From: Erysipelotrichaceae bacterium
GTDB taxonomy: Bacteria > Bacillota_I > Bacilli_A > Erysipelotrichales > Erysipelotrichaceae
Reading direction: 5' to 3'
Length of the DNA: 52,112 nt
NCBI GenBank assembly: GCA_030525525.1
Contig: JAUNEN010000001.1
Location: 94,934-147,045 of the forward strand
A model generated the notes under the pieces. The model made no database searches. It was given only the letters and a program-made list of their open reading frames with translations, and was not told the origin of the DNA. Of the stretch, positions 23,055 to 41,581 are shown one piece after another. The position numbers and the translations under genes are program-made. Each line of letters begins with the position of its first letter. Within the stretch, counting starts at the first letter, position 1.

Positions 23055-23271
23055 TGAAAAAATAAAAGGCATCCCGTGTAAGGACGCCTTGAGCGTGGTA
23101 CCACCTTGACTTGCTTCTCAGATACGTAACGTGTATGAACGGTATTTCCTACTGCAATGTTCAGAAATACAAGCTCCGGGGCGACTTCGTTTTCTGCTGT
23201 TCATCTGCTCTCACCAAACGCAGACTCTCTGGTCGAATCAGCCGGGAAACTACTCCTCCCCTTCATTGCTT
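23055..23271 (-). promoter_or_regulatory. T-box leader, specifier read as GUC (Val)
   Basis: The minus strand shows the T-box core AAGGTGGTACCACGC (23093-23107), followed by a terminator hairpin AAGGCGTCC..GGGATGCCTT (23065-23090) with a T-tract. Stem I features include AGAGAG and TTTGGTGA. The specifier region reads ACGAA-GTC-GCCCCGGAGC; GTC at 23183-23185 codes for valine. The same ten-base spacing to the following GAGC-type element recurs in the two other leaders, which supports the reading. It would allow transcription of the downstream operon when tRNA(Val) is uncharged. Confidence 0.88.
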
Positions 23272-23277
23272 GCGAGC

Positions 23278-29961: not shown

Positions 29962-30256
29962 AATTAAAAAAGCTTTCATCTACATCAGAACCCTGTTCTG
30001 AGAGACGAAAGCTGATCAAACATACTTCCGCGGTACCACTCTCTTTGCATCAAATGCCGCTCATTACGATCGGCCGTTTTTTCGGCGAATCGCGCTTTTT
30101 TTAACGGAAAGCTTCCGGCTCAGCCTACTCATTTCTTTTCAGCTTCGCTGCTTCAGGGCCAGTGTACTGTCTTAATGCCAATGCCTTTCACCAACCGGCA
30201 TCTCTCTTCCGACATATTTCAGACAGCTTTTTTCCCTGTCATCGCATTTCAATATT
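29962..30256 (-). promoter_or_regulatory. T-box leader, specifier read as CUG (Leu)
   Basis: Minus strand: T-box core AGAGAGTGGTACCGCGGAAG (30025-30044), then terminator AGCTTTC..TCAGAAC-AGG-GTTCTGA..GAAAGCT with TTTTTT. Stem I has GGAAGAGAGA and GGTTGGTGAAA. The specifier region reads CAGTACA-CTG-GCCCTGAAGC, with CTG at 30160-30162 at the same ten-base spacing as in the other two leaders. Upstream of the LeuA-like gene, which fits leucine. A one-base shift would read ACT (Thr), so structure prediction should confirm. Confidence 0.82.
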
Positions 30257-34685: not shown

Positions 34686-35375
34686 TTAAATCAGTTCAGC
34701 TGAAACAATCCCGTTCATCTCATCAATCTGATCAGCGAACTCCTGCTGTGTCATATCATTGGAAACTTTCAGTGTCAGCAGTGCACTGTACAGGGCAGCA
34801 CCGCTGTCTTTGTTCGATGTGATTTTAAGATTGGTGATCGCGGCGTCATGATCCTTGCAGAAGCGCATCACTTCATCAAGATCGCTGCGGTGATAATAGC
34901 TTAAGGCAATACTGAATTCCGGCGCAAACTGAATGCGGTTACGGATGTTGTTCAGGGATGTTTCAACAAAGATGATCATCAGTGTACCAAGAATTCCGCC
35001 TTCATAGAATCCTGCTCCGATGCATAGTCCGATGAGGCCGCTTGTCCAAAGACCTGCTGCCGTTGTCAGACCCTTGACCTTCTGCTTACGGGTCACGACG
35101 ATTGTTCCGGCACCGATAAATCCAAGACCTGTCACTACACCTGCCGCAATTCTTGACACATCGGTGGGCAGTGAAAGGCCGACATAAAGATAGATTCCGG
35201 TCATTGACGCAATCGCAGCGCCGAGCACAACCAGTATGTGGGTACGGAACCCGGCCGGTTTGTTATGATAGGACCTTTCCAGTCCGATGACTGTTCCGAT
35301 TATAAAAGAAAGAAGAAGCTTGATCAGAACTGCCGCAAAGCTTACGCCGCGGAAAGAATCAAATACATGCAGCAT
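34686..35375 (-). CDS. MgtC/SapB family membrane protein (first copy)
   Basis: A 229-residue membrane protein. The N-terminal 140 residues hold about four to five membrane helices with family motifs IGTVIGLERSYHNKPAGFRTHILVVLG-like blocks (IGLERS, KPAGFRTH), GVVTGLGFIGAGTIV and GLTTAAGLWTSGLIGLCIGAG. The C-terminal 80 residues form a soluble ACT-like domain (EFSIALSYYHRSDLDEVMRF). The ATG at 35375 has AGGAGG 8 nt upstream; the in-frame GTG three codons earlier is too close to it. It follows its paralogue by 13 nt. Proteins of this family are linked to Mg2+ limitation and ATP-synthase control in some pathogens; the role here is unknown. Confidence 0.9.
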   Translation of the reverse strand: MLHVFDSFRGVSFAAVLIKLLLSFIIGTVIGLERSYHNKPAGFRTHILVVLGAAIASMTGIYLYVGLSLPTDVSRIAAGVVTGLGFIGAGTIVVTRKQKVKGLTTAAGLWTSGLIGLCIGAGFYEGGILGTLMIIFVETSLNNIRNRIQFAPEFSIALSYYHRSDLDEVMRFCKDHDAAITNLKITSNKDSGAALYSALLTLKVSNDMTQQEFADQIDEMNGIVSAELI

Positions 35376-35388
35376 ATCGTACACCTCC

Positions 35389-36123
35389 TCAGGAAATCAG
35401 TTCTTCAATCGCGATCACGCTGTCAAGTTCCGCAATGGAGGAAAGCATGTCGGAATGCGATACATTCTCTTTGCTTAAACGCAGATTCATGATTGCCGAA
35501 GGATATTCATCCCCTTCTTTTGTAACTCTTTCAAATTCAATGTCCTGTATCTCTGCATTCTTTGCCTTGATGACATTCGTGATCTCAGATACATTTTCGA
35601 TTTTCTCAAATTCAACGGAAAATGTGATATTACGGCATCTGCGCTTGTAGCGTCTTTCCAGCGGCTGCATCACATTGAGTGCAATCACGATCAGCACACA
35701 GCTGAAGATCACGCATTCATAGAAACCTGCCCCGCACGCAATTCCCATACAGACAGAAGCGAAAAGTCCCGTTGCGGTTGTCAGGCCTTTGACCTGCTGG
35801 TGGGCTCCCGAAATGATGGAACCGGCTGCGATGAAACCGATTCCTCCGATCACTGCCGCCGAAAAACGGGAAGCGTCAAATTTGAGACCGACTGATGCCA
35901 CCGTATCCGCCCATACGGTATTCATCATTTCATATTCATATAATGCAAGCATCACTGACATACTTGCCCCGATGCCCGTCAGCATATATGTTCTGAAACC
36001 GGCCGTCTTTGATCTTCTGGTTCTGCCGTAGCCGATGATGCCGGAAGAAATCATTGCCAGAACCAACCTGAAAATGACTGTCGGGAAATGAAATTCCCGC
36101 AGATATTGAAAAACAGTATTCAT
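35389..36123 (-). CDS. MgtC/SapB family membrane protein (second copy)
   Basis: A 244-residue paralogue of the next gene with the same layout: membrane part with IIGYGRTRRSKTAGFRTYML, GGIGFIAAGSIISGAHQQVKGLTTATGLFASV and GAGFYE, then a soluble C-terminal domain (NITFSVEFEKIENVSEITNV). The usual GLER motif at the first helix is GYGRTRR here. AGGAG precedes the ATG at 36123. The two genes form one unit ending at 34645-34679. A heteromeric pair is plausible. Confidence 0.9.
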   Translation of the reverse strand: MNTVFQYLREFHFPTVIFRLVLAMISSGIIGYGRTRRSKTAGFRTYMLTGIGASMSVMLALYEYEMMNTVWADTVASVGLKFDASRFSAAVIGGIGFIAAGSIISGAHQQVKGLTTATGLFASVCMGIACGAGFYECVIFSCVLIVIALNVMQPLERRYKRRCRNITFSVEFEKIENVSEITNVIKAKNAEIQDIEFERVTKEGDEYPSAIMNLRLSKENVSHSDMLSSIAELDSVIAIEELIS

Positions 36124-36249: not shown

Positions 36250-37281
36250 CTAACGTTCCTCGCGGAAATAGGATATACCGAGTGATTGCGGATTCTGGTT
36301 TTCCCGCCGTTTGCGTTTGGATACCAGAATCAGAATCACGATTGTTACAAGATACGGGATCATGCGGTAGAGATTCTGCATGTGGCTCGGATTCGATGTG
36401 CCCAATGCCTTCGCAAGTGCAATCGAGATTGAGCCGGGTATATACAGATAGACCCAATAGCAGATACCGAAGACAAACGAGCCCCAGATTGCCGAGATCG
36501 GCTTCCAGCTTGTGAAGATGACAAGCGCGACTGCCAGCCAGCCGAGTGCTTCGATGCCGCCGCCTGTATCCCATGTGCCTTTGATATAGTCCATGACATA
36601 GTACACGCCGCCAAGGCCTTCGATCATGGCGCCGATTGTTGTTGCGACATATTTGTATTTGATGACATTGATGCCGGCCGCATCGGCGGTTGCCGGATTT
36701 TCACCGACCGCTCTGAGATTGAGGCCTGCTCTTGTTTTCTTTAAGAAATACCCTGCCGCAAGTGCAATCAGAATGGATGTATATGTCAGAAAGCCGTAAT
36801 TGAAGAAGATTGTTCCGAAGATACCGAGACTGTTTGCAAGTCCGGGAATCTGTGCTCTGTAGGCACTGGAAGCTGCCGCTACGGAGATCTGGCCGACGCC
36901 GCCGGAAAGCTTGACTAACGAGCCGCCGAAGAAGTTTGCAACGCCGCTGCCAAAGATTGTCAATGTGAGACCGGTGACATTCTGATTGGCACGCAGGGTA
37001 ACGGTCATAAAGCAGTATAACAGCCCGCCTAAGCCGCTGGCGGCAAGTGCGCAGATCAGTGAGATGATCAGACTGACAACAGCATTTGGCGCAGGGTTTC
37101 CGTTTTCATAGAAGAATGCACCGGCAAGCGCGCCGATGGCCCCAAGGTACATGATACCCGGAACACCGAGGTTCAGGTTGCCGCTCTTTTCAGTCAGGAT
37201 TTCACCGACCGAGCCGAGCATGATGATGGTGCCGAATGTGACGGCTGCGTTGATCCACGCAAGCAGTGAAGTCATTGACAT
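36250..37281 (-). CDS. BMP-type (nucleoside-like) ABC transporter permease 2
   Basis: A 343-residue membrane permease of the BPD_transp_2/YufQ-NupQ type, with about eight to ten hydrophobic segments. Conserved blocks: EILTEKSGNLNLGVPGIMYLGA and GLNLRAVGENPATADAAGIN. The ATG at 37281 has GGAGG 9 nt upstream; starts further upstream overlap the previous permease. Last gene of the transporter operon. By family context it forms the channel with the next permease; nucleosides are the usual substrate. Confidence 0.9.
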   Translation of the reverse strand: MSMTSLLAWINAAVTFGTIIMLGSVGEILTEKSGNLNLGVPGIMYLGAIGALAGAFFYENGNPAPNAVVSLIISLICALAASGLGGLLYCFMTVTLRANQNVTGLTLTIFGSGVANFFGGSLVKLSGGVGQISVAAASSAYRAQIPGLANSLGIFGTIFFNYGFLTYTSILIALAAGYFLKKTRAGLNLRAVGENPATADAAGINVIKYKYVATTIGAMIEGLGGVYYVMDYIKGTWDTGGGIEALGWLAVALVIFTSWKPISAIWGSFVFGICYWVYLYIPGSISIALAKALGTSNPSHMQNLYRMIPYLVTIVILILVSKRKRRENQNPQSLGISYFREER

Positions 37282-37282
37282 A

Positions 37283-38404
37283 TCAGGCAGCCTCCTTCCC
37301 CTTTTTGCTTCTGAATCTGATCTGATAATTGATGAAGAACTCACTTGCCAGAATGAAGAAGAGAATAATACCGGTCAGGATTTCACTTGCATATGTATTG
37401 AAGTTGAAATCCGAAGCGATCTGATTGGCGCCTCTTGAAAGGAAAGCCAGAATCGCCGTAATGAGTGACATTGCCAGCGGATTGAATTTTCCGAGCCACG
37501 CCACAATGATTGCCGTGAATCCGCGTCCGCCTGCAGTCAGAGATGAAATCGTATGGGAGACGCCGGCAACTTCGAGGAAACCTGCAATGCCGCAGATTCC
37601 GGCTGAGATTGCCATTGTTCTTAAGATAACCTTTGAAACCGAGATACCGGCATATCTTGCCGTATTCTCACTTTCACCGGCAACGCTGATTTCAAATCCA
37701 TGCTTGGAGTGCTTCATATAGAAATACATCGCCGCTGTCAGAATTGCTGCAATTAACACAACCGGTGCAAACTGCTGTCCGAACAAAGGAGAAAGCCAGC
37801 CTGCTTTTGTATCACCGTTGATAATACCGACTGAATGAGACTGTTTCTTATCCCATAAGTCGACGCAGAATTCAACAAGCTGCAGTGCGACGTAGTTCAT
37901 CATCAGGGTAAACAGTGTTTCGTTTGTTTTGTACTTTGCCTTGAAATAGGCAGGAATGAGTCCCCATACCGCTCCTGCAAGAGCTGCCGAAACAGCCATC
38001 AGGATGATCAGGAAGAAACCGGGAACCTTGCCGCCGAGATGAATCATCCATGCGGCAGAGACAAGACCGCCGATTAAGATCTGTCCTTCCGCGCCGACAT
38101 TCCAGAATCTTAACTTGAAGGCAGGTGCCAGACCGATCGCAATGATCAGCAGCATTCCCATATCCTTGAGTGTCTGCCAGATTCTGCGGCTTGTACCGAA
38201 GGCACCGGAGAACATCGAAGCATAGACGCTGATCGGATTGAGGGATGTGATGCTCATGATAAACAGCGCACACACAAGAAGTCCCGCCAGCACGCAGACA
38301 AGTCTGATGAGCCATGCCTTTGCGACAGGAATATCAGCTCTTCTGACGAGATGGATCAGAGGCTCCTTGACACTGTCATGCGGTTTTTCGTATTTGTTCC
38401 TCAT
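37283..38404 (-). CDS. BMP-type (nucleoside-like) ABC transporter permease 1
   Basis: A 373-residue membrane permease of the YufP-NupP type. Conserved blocks: LAPAFKLRFWNVGAEGQILIGG and KHGFEISVAGESENTARYAGISVS, plus GRGFTAIIVAWLGKFNP. The start overlaps the stop of the ATPase gene by four bases (ATGA), so they are translationally coupled. An N-terminal cytosolic tail of about 28 residues precedes the first helix. Confidence 0.92.
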   Translation of the reverse strand: MRNKYEKPHDSVKEPLIHLVRRADIPVAKAWLIRLVCVLAGLLVCALFIMSITSLNPISVYASMFSGAFGTSRRIWQTLKDMGMLLIIAIGLAPAFKLRFWNVGAEGQILIGGLVSAAWMIHLGGKVPGFFLIILMAVSAALAGAVWGLIPAYFKAKYKTNETLFTLMMNYVALQLVEFCVDLWDKKQSHSVGIINGDTKAGWLSPLFGQQFAPVVLIAAILTAAMYFYMKHSKHGFEISVAGESENTARYAGISVSKVILRTMAISAGICGIAGFLEVAGVSHTISSLTAGGRGFTAIIVAWLGKFNPLAMSLITAILAFLSRGANQIASDFNFNTYASEILTGIILFFILASEFFINYQIRFRSKKGKEAA

Positions 38405-39939
38405 GCCTTTGCCTCCTCATTCACGATATTGGTCATGCGTCTGCCGACTTCTTCTTTTGTCACCGTACGGGCATCCAGCATGCCGTTTGCCTTTCCTCCG
38501 CAAAGCACCAGGATTCTGTCTGCCAGAGCAAGCAGTACATCAAGGTCTTCACCGACATAGATCACGGCAACGCCTTTTTTCTTCTGCTCGGTGAGCAGAT
38601 TGTAGATGGTATAGGATTTGGAAATATCCAGTCCTCTGACCGCATATGCAGTCATCAGGATGACCGGTTCAGCCGCAATTTCACGGCCGACAAGTACTTT
38701 CTGAACATTTCCGCCGGAAAGTTTTCGGACCGGCGTGTCAAGACTCGGTGTGCTGACATCGAGTTCGTTTTTGATTTCGTCTGCGATCTTCAATGAGCTG
38801 GTGCGGTTGAGAAACGGTGAACGGCCCCTGTCATATTCCTTCAGCATCATGTTTTCCGTCATACCCATGGAAGCGACAAGACCCATACCGAGTCTGTCTT
38901 CGGGCACGAAGGAAAGATGAATGCCGAGGTTGCGGATTTCACGGACCGGTACACCGGCAAGATCTTTCTCGTTTCCGCTCGGATCGGTATAGACAATGCT
39001 GCCGCCTTCTTCAATTCTCTGAAGACCGGCAATCGCTTCAAGAAGTTCCTTCTGTCCGCATCCGGAAATACCGGCGATGCCGAGAATCTCACCGCTGTAG
39101 ACATCGAACGATACATCATCAAGTGCCTTGATGCGCTCATCGTTGTAAACAGTCAGGTGTCTGACTTCAAGACGCTTTTCAGGATTGACAGGCATGGGTC
39201 TGTCAATATCGAGTGTCACCTTTTCGCCGACCATTGCCTCAGTCAGAATCTGTTCGGTCGCAACCGGTGTCGGAATGGTTGTAATGTACTGTCCTTTTCT
39301 CAGGATCGTCACACGGTCGGAGAGCTCAAGAACTTCATTGAGCTTGTGCGTGATCAGTACAACCGCTTTTCCGTCTGCGCGCATTGCCTTCAGAACCTTG
39401 AACAGCTTGGCGGTTTCCTGAGGTGTGAGAACTGCGGTCGGTTCGTCAAGAATCAGGATATTCGCACCGCGGTAAAGGATTTTGACAATTTCAAGTGTCT
39501 GCTTCTGGGCAACACTCATCTCATAGACCTTCTGCTCGGGGTCGATGTCAAAACCGTACTGGGCTGCGATTTCCCTGACCTTCTGGTTAACTTCTTTCAG
39601 ATCATAGGTACGGGAGCCTTCAATGCCGAGAATGATGTTTTCGGCAGCCGTGAAGACATCGATCAGCTTGAAGTGCTGATGAATCATACCGATGCCCAGT
39701 CTGTACGCATCATGGGGACTCTTGATTGTCACTTCCCTGCCGTTTACATAAAAGTATCCTTCATCCGGATAATAGATACCCGCCAGCATGTTCATCAGAG
39801 TTGTTTTTCCCGATCCGTTCTCACCCAGAATCGAAAGAATCTCTCCGTAGTTGATACTCATGCTGACATGGTCATTGGCCGTAACGCTTCCGAAGCGCTT
39901 GGTCACATTTTCCATACGGACAGCCGATCTGTCTTCCAT
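38401..39939 (-). CDS. BMP-type ABC transporter ATPase with two nucleotide-binding domains
   Basis: A 512-residue ATPase with two ABC domains, as in YufO/NupO and RbsA. Domain 1: Walker A GENGSGKTTL, signature MSVAQKQTLEI, Walker B ILILDEPTAVL. Domain 2: GISGCGQKELLEAI in place of a full Walker A, signature KLSGGNVQKVLVGREI, and PVILMTAYAVRGLD at Walker B, where relatives usually have PTRGLD. A degenerate second site is normal in this family, though AYAVRGLD is unusual in detail. I use the ATG at 39939 (GGAGG 10 nt upstream); the ATG at 39948 is one base from that site. It energises the two permeases. Confidence 0.93.
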   Translation of the reverse strand: MEDRSAVRMENVTKRFGSVTANDHVSMSINYGEILSILGENGSGKTTLMNMLAGIYYPDEGYFYVNGREVTIKSPHDAYRLGIGMIHQHFKLIDVFTAAENIILGIEGSRTYDLKEVNQKVREIAAQYGFDIDPEQKVYEMSVAQKQTLEIVKILYRGANILILDEPTAVLTPQETAKLFKVLKAMRADGKAVVLITHKLNEVLELSDRVTILRKGQYITTIPTPVATEQILTEAMVGEKVTLDIDRPMPVNPEKRLEVRHLTVYNDERIKALDDVSFDVYSGEILGIAGISGCGQKELLEAIAGLQRIEEGGSIVYTDPSGNEKDLAGVPVREIRNLGIHLSFVPEDRLGMGLVASMGMTENMMLKEYDRGRSPFLNRTSSLKIADEIKNELDVSTPSLDTPVRKLSGGNVQKVLVGREIAAEPVILMTAYAVRGLDISKSYTIYNLLTEQKKKGVAVIYVGEDLDVLLALADRILVLCGGKANGMLDARTVTKEEVGRRMTNIVNEEAKA

Positions 39940-39964
39940 ACTTCCCATACCTCCTTAACAACGA

Positions 39965-40035: not shown

Positions 40036-41334
40036 TCAGTTGTTGGAATTTGAATCAATACCGTCAATGATGAAGCTGAAGTAAGGAGCGGAACGGAAAC
40101 CGTCCTTTGTATCAGATTCATAGAACACGCCGTCCTTGACCGGGAAAATGTCAGCTGTGCCGTCGAAGTCGAGATCGCAGCCATCCTTTTCAGTCAGTTC
40201 AGCTCCGTTGACTGTGAATGTGGAAACATCGAATACATTGAGGCTGCCGTCCTTGATTGCAGCTTCAACTTCAGCGACCTTTGCGTCTGTGCCAGCAGCG
40301 CAGGAGTCACCGAGCTTTGTAACGTTGACAGCACCTGTCTCATAGCCCTCGGACCAGTCAACAGCGATATCCATTGCCTTGCCTGCAAGCCACTGTGTAA
40401 ATGCATAGTTGTAATAAACAGACCAGTCGTTGGAAGCGGAGGTCAGAGCTGCCTTAGGAGCAACTTCCAGCATGGAAACGTTGTAGCCGACAGAGTAGAC
40501 CGGCTTGCCGCTTTCGTTGGCTGCCTGGATTGCACTCGGAGCACCTGTTGTATCAGCGTGCTGGGAAATGATGACGCATCCGTCAGCGATCAGCTTTTCA
40601 GCTGTTGTGCCTTCAGCGACCTGATCAGCCCAGGAGCTTGTGTATTCAACGATCATATGAACGTTCGGAACGATTGCCTTGACGCCGAGATAGAATGCTG
40701 TGAAGCCGGAAACAACTTCTGCATAAGGGAATGCACCGACATAGCCGATCTTGACATCGCCGTCTGCTGTGTAGGCATCCGGTGTCTTTTCAGGGGAAAC
40801 TTCACCGTTTTCGATGAGTTCAGCGAGCTTCATGCCGCCGACGATACCTGAAACATAACGTGACTGATATGTCTGGTTGAATGCGTTCTTGAAGTTTGCA
40901 AGGCCGGAGTTAGCGGCTGTGTCACCTGTCATGGAGATGAATGTGACATCTTCATGATCGGCAGCGACCTGCTGCATATATGTCTGATGTCCGTAAGAGT
41001 TGGAAATAACCAGTGTAGCACCCTGATCAACGAGGTCTTCAGCTGCGTCTGCGCATGCCTGATTCTCTTCGATCATATATTTCCACATGATTTTGTCAGA
41101 AGAGATGCCGAGGTCTTCAGCTGCCTTCTTGATGCCTTCAATGTGAGCTGCTGTATAGCCTTCGTTCTCATCACCGACGAGGATAACGCCGATTTTGCCG
41201 TCTGTTTCAACTGTATCTGTAGTTTCAGTGTTTCCGCTCTCGCCTTCTGTTTCAGAAGCGGGAGTGCTGCTGCCGCAGGCTGCCATGGAAACAGCGAGCA
41301 GTGCAGATAATGCTGCGGTAAGAACCTTTTTCAT
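40036..41334 (-). CDS. BMP-family ABC substrate-binding lipoprotein
   Basis: A 432-residue extracellular lipoprotein of the BmpA/PnrA (Med) family, whose known members bind purine nucleosides. Signal peptide MKKVLTAALSALLAVSMAAC with Cys20 lipidated, then a Ser/Thr/Glu-rich linker, then GKIGVILVGDENEGYTAAHI and VISNSYGHQTYMQQVAADH, typical of the fold. The frame is open far upstream, through an attenuator-like region, but GGAGGG lies 6 nt before the ATG at 41334 and the signal peptide starts there. First structural gene of the transporter operon. Nucleoside specificity is inferred from the family. Confidence 0.92.
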   Translation of the reverse strand: MKKVLTAALSALLAVSMAACGSSTPASETEGESGNTETTDTVETDGKIGVILVGDENEGYTAAHIEGIKKAAEDLGISSDKIMWKYMIEENQACADAAEDLVDQGATLVISNSYGHQTYMQQVAADHEDVTFISMTGDTAANSGLANFKNAFNQTYQSRYVSGIVGGMKLAELIENGEVSPEKTPDAYTADGDVKIGYVGAFPYAEVVSGFTAFYLGVKAIVPNVHMIVEYTSSWADQVAEGTTAEKLIADGCVIISQHADTTGAPSAIQAANESGKPVYSVGYNVSMLEVAPKAALTSASNDWSVYYNYAFTQWLAGKAMDIAVDWSEGYETGAVNVTKLGDSCAAGTDAKVAEVEAAIKDGSLNVFDVSTFTVNGAELTEKDGCDLDFDGTADIFPVKDGVFYESDTKDGFRSAPYFSFIIDGIDSNSNN

Positions 41335-41387: not shown

Positions 41388-41430
41388 TTAAAAAACGGGA
41401 TCGTCTTGTCTGAACCAGAAGCGATTCCGT
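41388..41430 (-). terminator. Attenuator-like terminator before the BMP gene
   Basis: Minus strand: ACGGAATCG..CGATCCCGT (eight pairs, one mismatch) followed by TTTTTT. It begins on the last base of the leader ORF's stop codon, 54 nt before the BMP start codon. Confidence 0.65.
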
Positions 41431-41522
41431 TACTTTGCAGAAATACAGCATAAAGCCGCAATAAAATCACAGCCGTGATTCAGCAGGAAGATTGTTCTGA
41501 CTGTTTTCTGATGTAGAACCAT
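41430..41522 (-). CDS. Leader ORF of 30 codons upstream of the BMP transporter operon
   Basis: ATG at 41522 with an excellent AAAGGAGG site 7 nt upstream, 30 codons, TAA at 41430-41432. The product would be MVLHQKTVRTIFLL.. to ..ALCCISAK, with a hydrophobic second half. It is the first ORF after the promoter at 41554-41581, and its stop codon touches the terminator hairpin. This is the geometry of leader-peptide attenuation, though I see no run of one regulatory codon. It could instead be a genuine small protein. Confidence 0.5.
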   Translation of the reverse strand: MVLHQKTVRTIFLLNHGCDFIAALCCISAK

Positions 41523-41553
41523 AAACCTTCCTCCTTTCGCTTGTGATGAATTG

Positions 41554-41581
41554 ATTATAAACTCTCAATCTGAAAAAACAA
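41554..41581 (-). promoter_or_regulatory. Promoter of the BMP transporter operon
   Basis: Minus strand: TTGTTT, 16-nt spacer, TATAAT, placing the transcript start roughly 25 nt before the leader ORF. The rest of 41335-41773 holds the leader, the attenuator and the peptidase terminator. Confidence 0.7.

Follow-up and report, generated by a model that had tools for sequence, protein, structure and literature searches.

How is the expression of the ABC importer operon on the minus strand of the window, a 52,112-nt stretch of an Erysipelotrichaceae genome, controlled? A leader stretch of about 200 nt lies ahead of this operon, which is of the BMP type. The initial annotation had read in it, in order, a promoter, the sequence AAAGGAGG, a 30-codon ORF, a stop codon touching a hairpin, and then the binding-protein gene. 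All of these are present on the minus strand (Table 1), and the TAA stop codon is itself the foot of the terminator hairpin.

Table 1. Features of the leader and of the operon behind it, in window coordinates.
Feature	Position	Strand	Details
Promoter	41554..41581	-	-35 TTGTTT at 41581-41576, 16-nt spacer, -10 TATAAT at 41559-41554
Shine-Dalgarno (SD) sequence AAAGGAGG of the leader ORF	41530..41537	-	Purine-rich SD at the same position in 12/12 leaders
Leader ORF, 30 codons MVLHQKTVRTIFLLNHGCDFIAALCCISAK plus TAA	41430..41522	-	ATG at 41522, TAA at 41432-41430
Conserved element GTGATTTTATTGCGGC within the ORF, encoding D-F-I-A	41455..41470	-	Longest run conserved across the six aligned sequences; RNA polymerase may pause at TGC|GG
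Predicted small hairpin GCGGC/GCUGU, 3' half of the ORF	41444..41460	-	From RNA folds; weak covariation
Intrinsic terminator	41390..41431	-	Hairpin 41431-41394 and six T at 41395-41390; 5' arm overlaps the stop codon
BMP/PnrA-type substrate-binding lipoprotein gene	40036..41334	-	PF02608, E 3.3e-25, 89.1 bits against a cut-off of 24.1; start at 41334
ABC transporter ATPase, two ABC domains, same operon	38401..39948	-	PF00005, two stretches
ABC transporter permease 1	37283..38404	-	PF02653 (BPD_transp_2)
ABC transporter permease 2	36250..37344	-	PF02653 (BPD_transp_2)

A consensus scan of the window listed neither the leader promoter nor the leader terminator, because the -35 is weak and the stem contains a mismatch and inner loops. 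The folding of the hairpin is modest (-12.6 kcal/mol, with 10 of 200 dinucleotide shuffles folding as well). By a separate script, the window holds 38 terminator-like sites, and at three of them, the leader included, an SD-preceded short ORF ends at the stem. A terminator-like site of the upstream clostripain-family gene lies at 41736-41719. Since the arrangement is not unique within the window, conservation is the evidence that counts, and the support for the leader promoter and terminator comes from conservation among loci rather than from the consensus scan.

To make this comparison, relatives of the BMP gene were collected from two sources: 70 genomes of the genus, 25 of which had a match, and a named genome collection, of whose 205 loci 80 were kept. 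The relatives of the window genome are Erysipelotrichaceae, several labelled 'Solobacterium sp.', and many apparently come from ruminant guts. In a tree of 86 distinct loci, the window BMP falls within a clade of 16, and 12 of these keep the layout (L001, which is the window, L102, L002-L010 and L103); the other 11 BMP proteins are 68-89% identical to that of the window. The frame of the leader ORF is open in all 12 loci, whereas the same spans, read in the two other frames, are open in only 3 of 24 cases (Fisher P 4e-7). With one locus per lineage the counts are 8/8 versus 2/16 (P 6e-5), and neither P value corrects fully for ancestry or for the choice of starts by SD scan. This choice brings in a mild circularity, as the starts were picked by that scan and the L103 start was added by eye; the scan also lists scattered short ORFs ahead of other BMP genes. 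Among the six closest loci, the gaps inside the ORF columns common to all six are 6, 3 and 3 nt long, and those outside are 1 or 2 nt, once 13. The end of the stop codon lies between 1 nt inside and 7 nt before the 5' arm of the terminator in 10 of the 12 loci, and within the hairpin in the remaining two (L103 and L007). The terminator folds in all 12 leaders, and the promoter reads TTGNNN-N16-TATAAT in 11, the exception (L003) keeping its -10. At the level of sequence comparison, then, the leader arrangement is real and conserved. The leader ORF and attenuator proposed by the initial annotation are supported by these counts, and the ORF is conserved in relatives in the sense that its frame is kept.

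The four remaining members of the clade depart from the layout in different ways. L011 and L012 have a different -10 and possibly a leaderless ORF: in their BMP leaders (L011:1245-1441 and L012:1235-1436) there is no usable start behind the SD, and an ATG stands about 7 nt after the -10. L013 has a GTG ORF that runs beyond the hairpin. In L104, an xpt gene takes the place of the leader ORF and ends before the terminator; this terminator resembles the leader terminators of L011 and L012, which may hint that the leader arose after loss of xpt. A DNA search and a covariance model, run over the 70 genus genomes, gave strong matches to the leader only before BMP. Likewise, no leader ORF of this layout was seen by eye before Xan_ur_permease (NCS2/AzgA-type) genes at 28 loci in the 16 leader-clade genomes; at some of these loci, L150 for one, the upstream sequence is short.

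The closest solved chains to the BMP protein are 3s99 (E 2.9e-24) and 6pi5 (E 1.9e-23). The latter is AtzT, described as purified with guanine bound and as having a guanine Kd of about 110 nM, and adenine was modelled in the structure of 3s99 (PMC6834077). In an alignment read by hand, with an inferred chain numbering offset of 5, Tyr45, Ser97, Glu165 and Trp194 of AtzT align with Tyr, Ser, Glu and Trp of the window protein, and Asn169, Asn218 and Asn220 have no clear counterpart. BmpD, a more distant relative, is described as binding purine nucleosides (PMC7093131). A motif search of the 86 loci places xpt, or an xpt-like phosphoribosyltransferase gene, directly upstream of BMP in L104, L020, L045, L084 and L095, outgroup loci among them. 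Judged from these findings, the likely cargo is a purine, either as the base or as the nucleoside. Two adjacent MgtC-family genes (34686-36123, minus strand) come next after the importer operon and are possibly co-transcribed with it.

The sister clade provides a link to purines that the initial annotation had missed. Among its 18 loci, 17 carry a purine riboswitch just upstream of BMP (15 found by cmscan, L105 and L106 by a genome search), the one without being L071. Read by hand, all 17 contain GACTATG with the C that we take to mark a guanine-type purine riboswitch. The order of the operon is the same in both clades, and the ATPase follows BMP in 16/16 leader-clade loci and in 16/17 riboswitch loci, the 17th being cut off by a contig end. 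RF00167 is present in 44 of the 70 genus genomes, in none of the 14 leader-type genomes (those with loci of the L001-L012, L102 and L103 type) versus 44 of the 56 others; a P value for this contrast overstates independence, because the 14 genomes come from one clade and the pattern reflects one or few phylogenetic events. A lenient repeat of the search on the 14 genomes gave only an 18-bit match with E = 9, in G102. The other two members of the leader clade, G054 and G108, have one purine riboswitch each, away from BMP, and that of G054 precedes a purine-type permease. The riboswitch and the leader stand at the same place of the same operon and, if the leader works as we propose below, both control purine uptake through RNA; they differ in that the riboswitch RNA senses the base directly and needs no ORF. 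Because the sister operon is under a guanine-type riboswitch, we take purine supply to be the most likely purpose of the leader as well.

Based upon these comparisons, we think it probable, with moderate confidence, that the leader acts as a transcription attenuator coupled to translation, in front of a purine-uptake operon and in the position where relatives have a guanine riboswitch. RNA polymerase would start about 25 nt before the leader ORF, and the strong SD would load a ribosome. If this ribosome kept pace with the polymerase, it would be at the stop codon as the terminator emerges and would cover the 5' arm, so that transcription could continue into the importer genes. If the polymerase ran ahead, or the leader were left untranslated, the hairpin would form and transcription would stop at about 41390. 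Readthrough would be set by whether the ribosome keeps up, and therefore the coupling between ribosome and polymerase would be the sensor and the sequence of the peptide would be largely irrelevant. The layout, the frame conservation, the terminator and the mutual exclusion with the riboswitch come from the comparison of sequences; we infer translation, termination, the direction of the effect, the signal and the purine ligand. B. subtilis is reported to couple transcription and translation only loosely, which counts against this explanation.

Parts of this scheme are known from other leaders. The E. coli pyrBI leader, a UTP-sensitive and translation-coupled attenuator, likewise has a short ORF that reaches the terminator. 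It is described as reading nucleotide supply through the coupling of transcription and translation (PMC3641672). The window operon differs from it in being probably a purine importer, in a Firmicute, with TTT N TGCGG as the conserved tract instead of a long U-run; its response to an NTP is hypothetical. In E. coli, translating ribosomes are described as almost fully repressing a terminator placed a few bp after the stop codon, since they cover the mRNA; the effect has faded at a distance of about 27-30 nt (PMC4824070). The idea of the initial annotation that a ribosome at the stop would cover the 5' arm gains from this and from the stop positions in the 12 leaders. In tlrB (yxjB) of B. subtilis, also a Firmicute leader ORF with an intrinsic terminator, a ribosome nearing the leader stop is described as interfering with the terminator hairpin after a NusG-dependent pause, and the antiterminator is given there as not identified (PMC6851288). 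There, by contrast, the signal is tylosin, the pause is NusG-dependent and the controlled gene encodes an rRNA methylase (PMC6851288). The ATP-sensing mgtM leader of Salmonella mgtCBR resembles the window leader in that its amino acids are unconserved and particular nucleotides are conserved, but it is described as having no recognisable intrinsic terminator and as being induced by high ATP (PMC3641672).

The leader peptide is mostly not conserved: its common piece is an F-x-A core, mostly followed by A or G, which is found in almost all leaders and stands about 10-12 residues before the stop in close relatives. The last residues differ by lineage (SAK, MER, FKA, FME, FIE, DRN, DVV or REG), and none of the last eight positions is conserved among the leaders. 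Substitutions at the first, second and third codon positions number 12/13/9 between the window and L102, 10/12/8 between L003 and L004, and 15/9/20 between L102 and L005; the close-relative pairs show no consistent third-position excess. As the substitutions are spread over the codon positions, the peptide drifts while the frame stays. Searches found no Pfam match for three leader peptides and no NCBIfam match for two. The initial annotation had raised the possibility that the nascent chain senses a ligand, and one could imagine a peptide that, with a purine, nucleoside or drug in the tunnel, stalls the ribosome around the stop codon and thereby blocks the terminator, as in TnaC or SpeFL. The near-universal core would suit such a sensor. 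So would the L011/L012 pair, in which 26 of 59 differences are at third positions, an excess that suggests that peptide constraint may exist in that branch; their common peptide, Y-A-L/M-I-T-G-F/I-H-A/T-L-W-N-T-R-I-S-x-A-D-G, is FHALWNTRISHADG-like. Against it stand the variable last residues, the other pairs, and the codons of the core itself, where Phe is kept as TTT and Ala as the rare GCG. In eight genes of the window, these make up 33% of the Phe and 16% of the Ala codons; selection on the peptide does not require such a choice. With its claim weakened in this way, a nascent-chain sensor appears unlikely to us. An unconserved peptide with a core conserved at the codon level suggests that what is selected is translation as far as the hairpin, together with a short nucleotide element, and not a sensing peptide.

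Could the RNA act without the ORF? The fold of the leader is better than those of shuffled sequences (z -3.27). In the six closest loci, RNAalifold predicts pairing of the 5' end to GTGAT and of the SD to the ORF, and the sister operons do use a riboswitch. All of this would fit a structured leader or riboswitch of an unfamiliar kind with an incidental ORF. Against it, the frame is open in every leader, and the SD and the start are kept. In addition, the covariation term of the six-sequence fold (+0.34) gives no support, the structural model gives at best a weak match to leaders beyond the closest six, and the leader has no Rfam match, including none to RF00167 above the gathering score. A pure RNA element is therefore, in our judgement, quite improbable. 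The leader ORF and terminator also form the classic layout of an attenuator of the trp or his type, in which one scarce charged tRNA would stall the ribosome, but there is no amino acid and no run of regulatory codons for one amino acid common to the leaders, nor is an antiterminator conserved, and we give this explanation hardly any credence. Finally, the anatomy is like that of tlrB, and a general translation-stress (antibiotic) attenuator of the tlrB/erm kind could have come to stand on an importer by chance. The operon is an importer with purine links and not a resistance gene, which makes this very unlikely.

Three pairings were considered and set aside. A conserved antiterminator was rejected after each of the 12 leaders had been folded up to the 3' arm of the terminator, as the 5' arm had no common partner; attenuators such as pyrBI and tlrB, whose 5' arm is blocked by the ribosome, do not require such pairing. 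Sequestration of the SD by the ORF is clear in L103 and in L006-L009 and does not exceed shuffles in the others, so it is not general and we do not claim it. The helix formed by CATCAC at the 5' end and GTGAT is uninformative because it is invariant in the six closest loci, and it is not kept outside them.

Within the favoured scheme of a translation-coupled attenuator, the conserved element in the ORF raises the further question of which signal could be read. TTT N TG(C/A)G occurs in 11 of the 12 leaders; 10 of these 11 have Y-1/G+1, 8 have a G at -11, and one has G-10. The pause consensus of E. coli is described as G-10 Y-1 G+1, with RNA polymerase waiting before G (PMC9291695). The motif of the leaders matches this consensus in part only, and the consensus is that of E. 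coli. If GTP were low, RNA polymerase might wait at TTT N TGC|GG in the middle of the ORF, since the E. coli consensus needs an incoming G. The leading ribosome could then catch up and mask the terminator, and purine uptake would be switched on, with the ORF selected only as a ribosome track. A low-GTP signal would be a physiologically neat choice: scarcity of purines would turn the operon on, the response also expected from the riboswitch of the sister clade. That a GTP-sensing, translation-coupled attenuator replaces the guanine riboswitch, as a purine counterpart of pyrBI in a Firmicute, is possible but rather doubtful.

The anatomy of the leader is of a known kind; its novelty lies in the operon it precedes, in its exchange with a riboswitch and in a frame that is conserved without its peptide. 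Literature searches found no leader ORF before a BMP operon and no purine-sensing leader peptide, which is not proof of absence. Orthologous operons of a single genus appear to use two unrelated RNA-level devices for one task: some have a riboswitch that binds its ligand, others a translated leader with a terminator at its end. The pair offers a natural test of riboswitch gain, loss and replacement. The leader would also be a case of a conserved small ORF in which the act of translation, rather than the product, seems to be under selection. If it does read GTP through coupling, it would represent a purine version of pyrBI attenuation as well as evidence for functional coupling in a Firmicute.

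Other candidate RNA elements were seen in the window and in its relatives. Two T-box leaders lie in the window on the minus strand, at 23077-23275 and 29998-30251, scoring 123.2 and 97.6 bits, above the Rfam gathering score. In leader-type genomes, a possible hairpin of GGTTTTTCC, AAGG and GGAAAAATC lies between the promoter and the SD of an AzgA-type purine permease (L153, and also L149), at the position that a purine riboswitch occupies in another genome (G054, L155).
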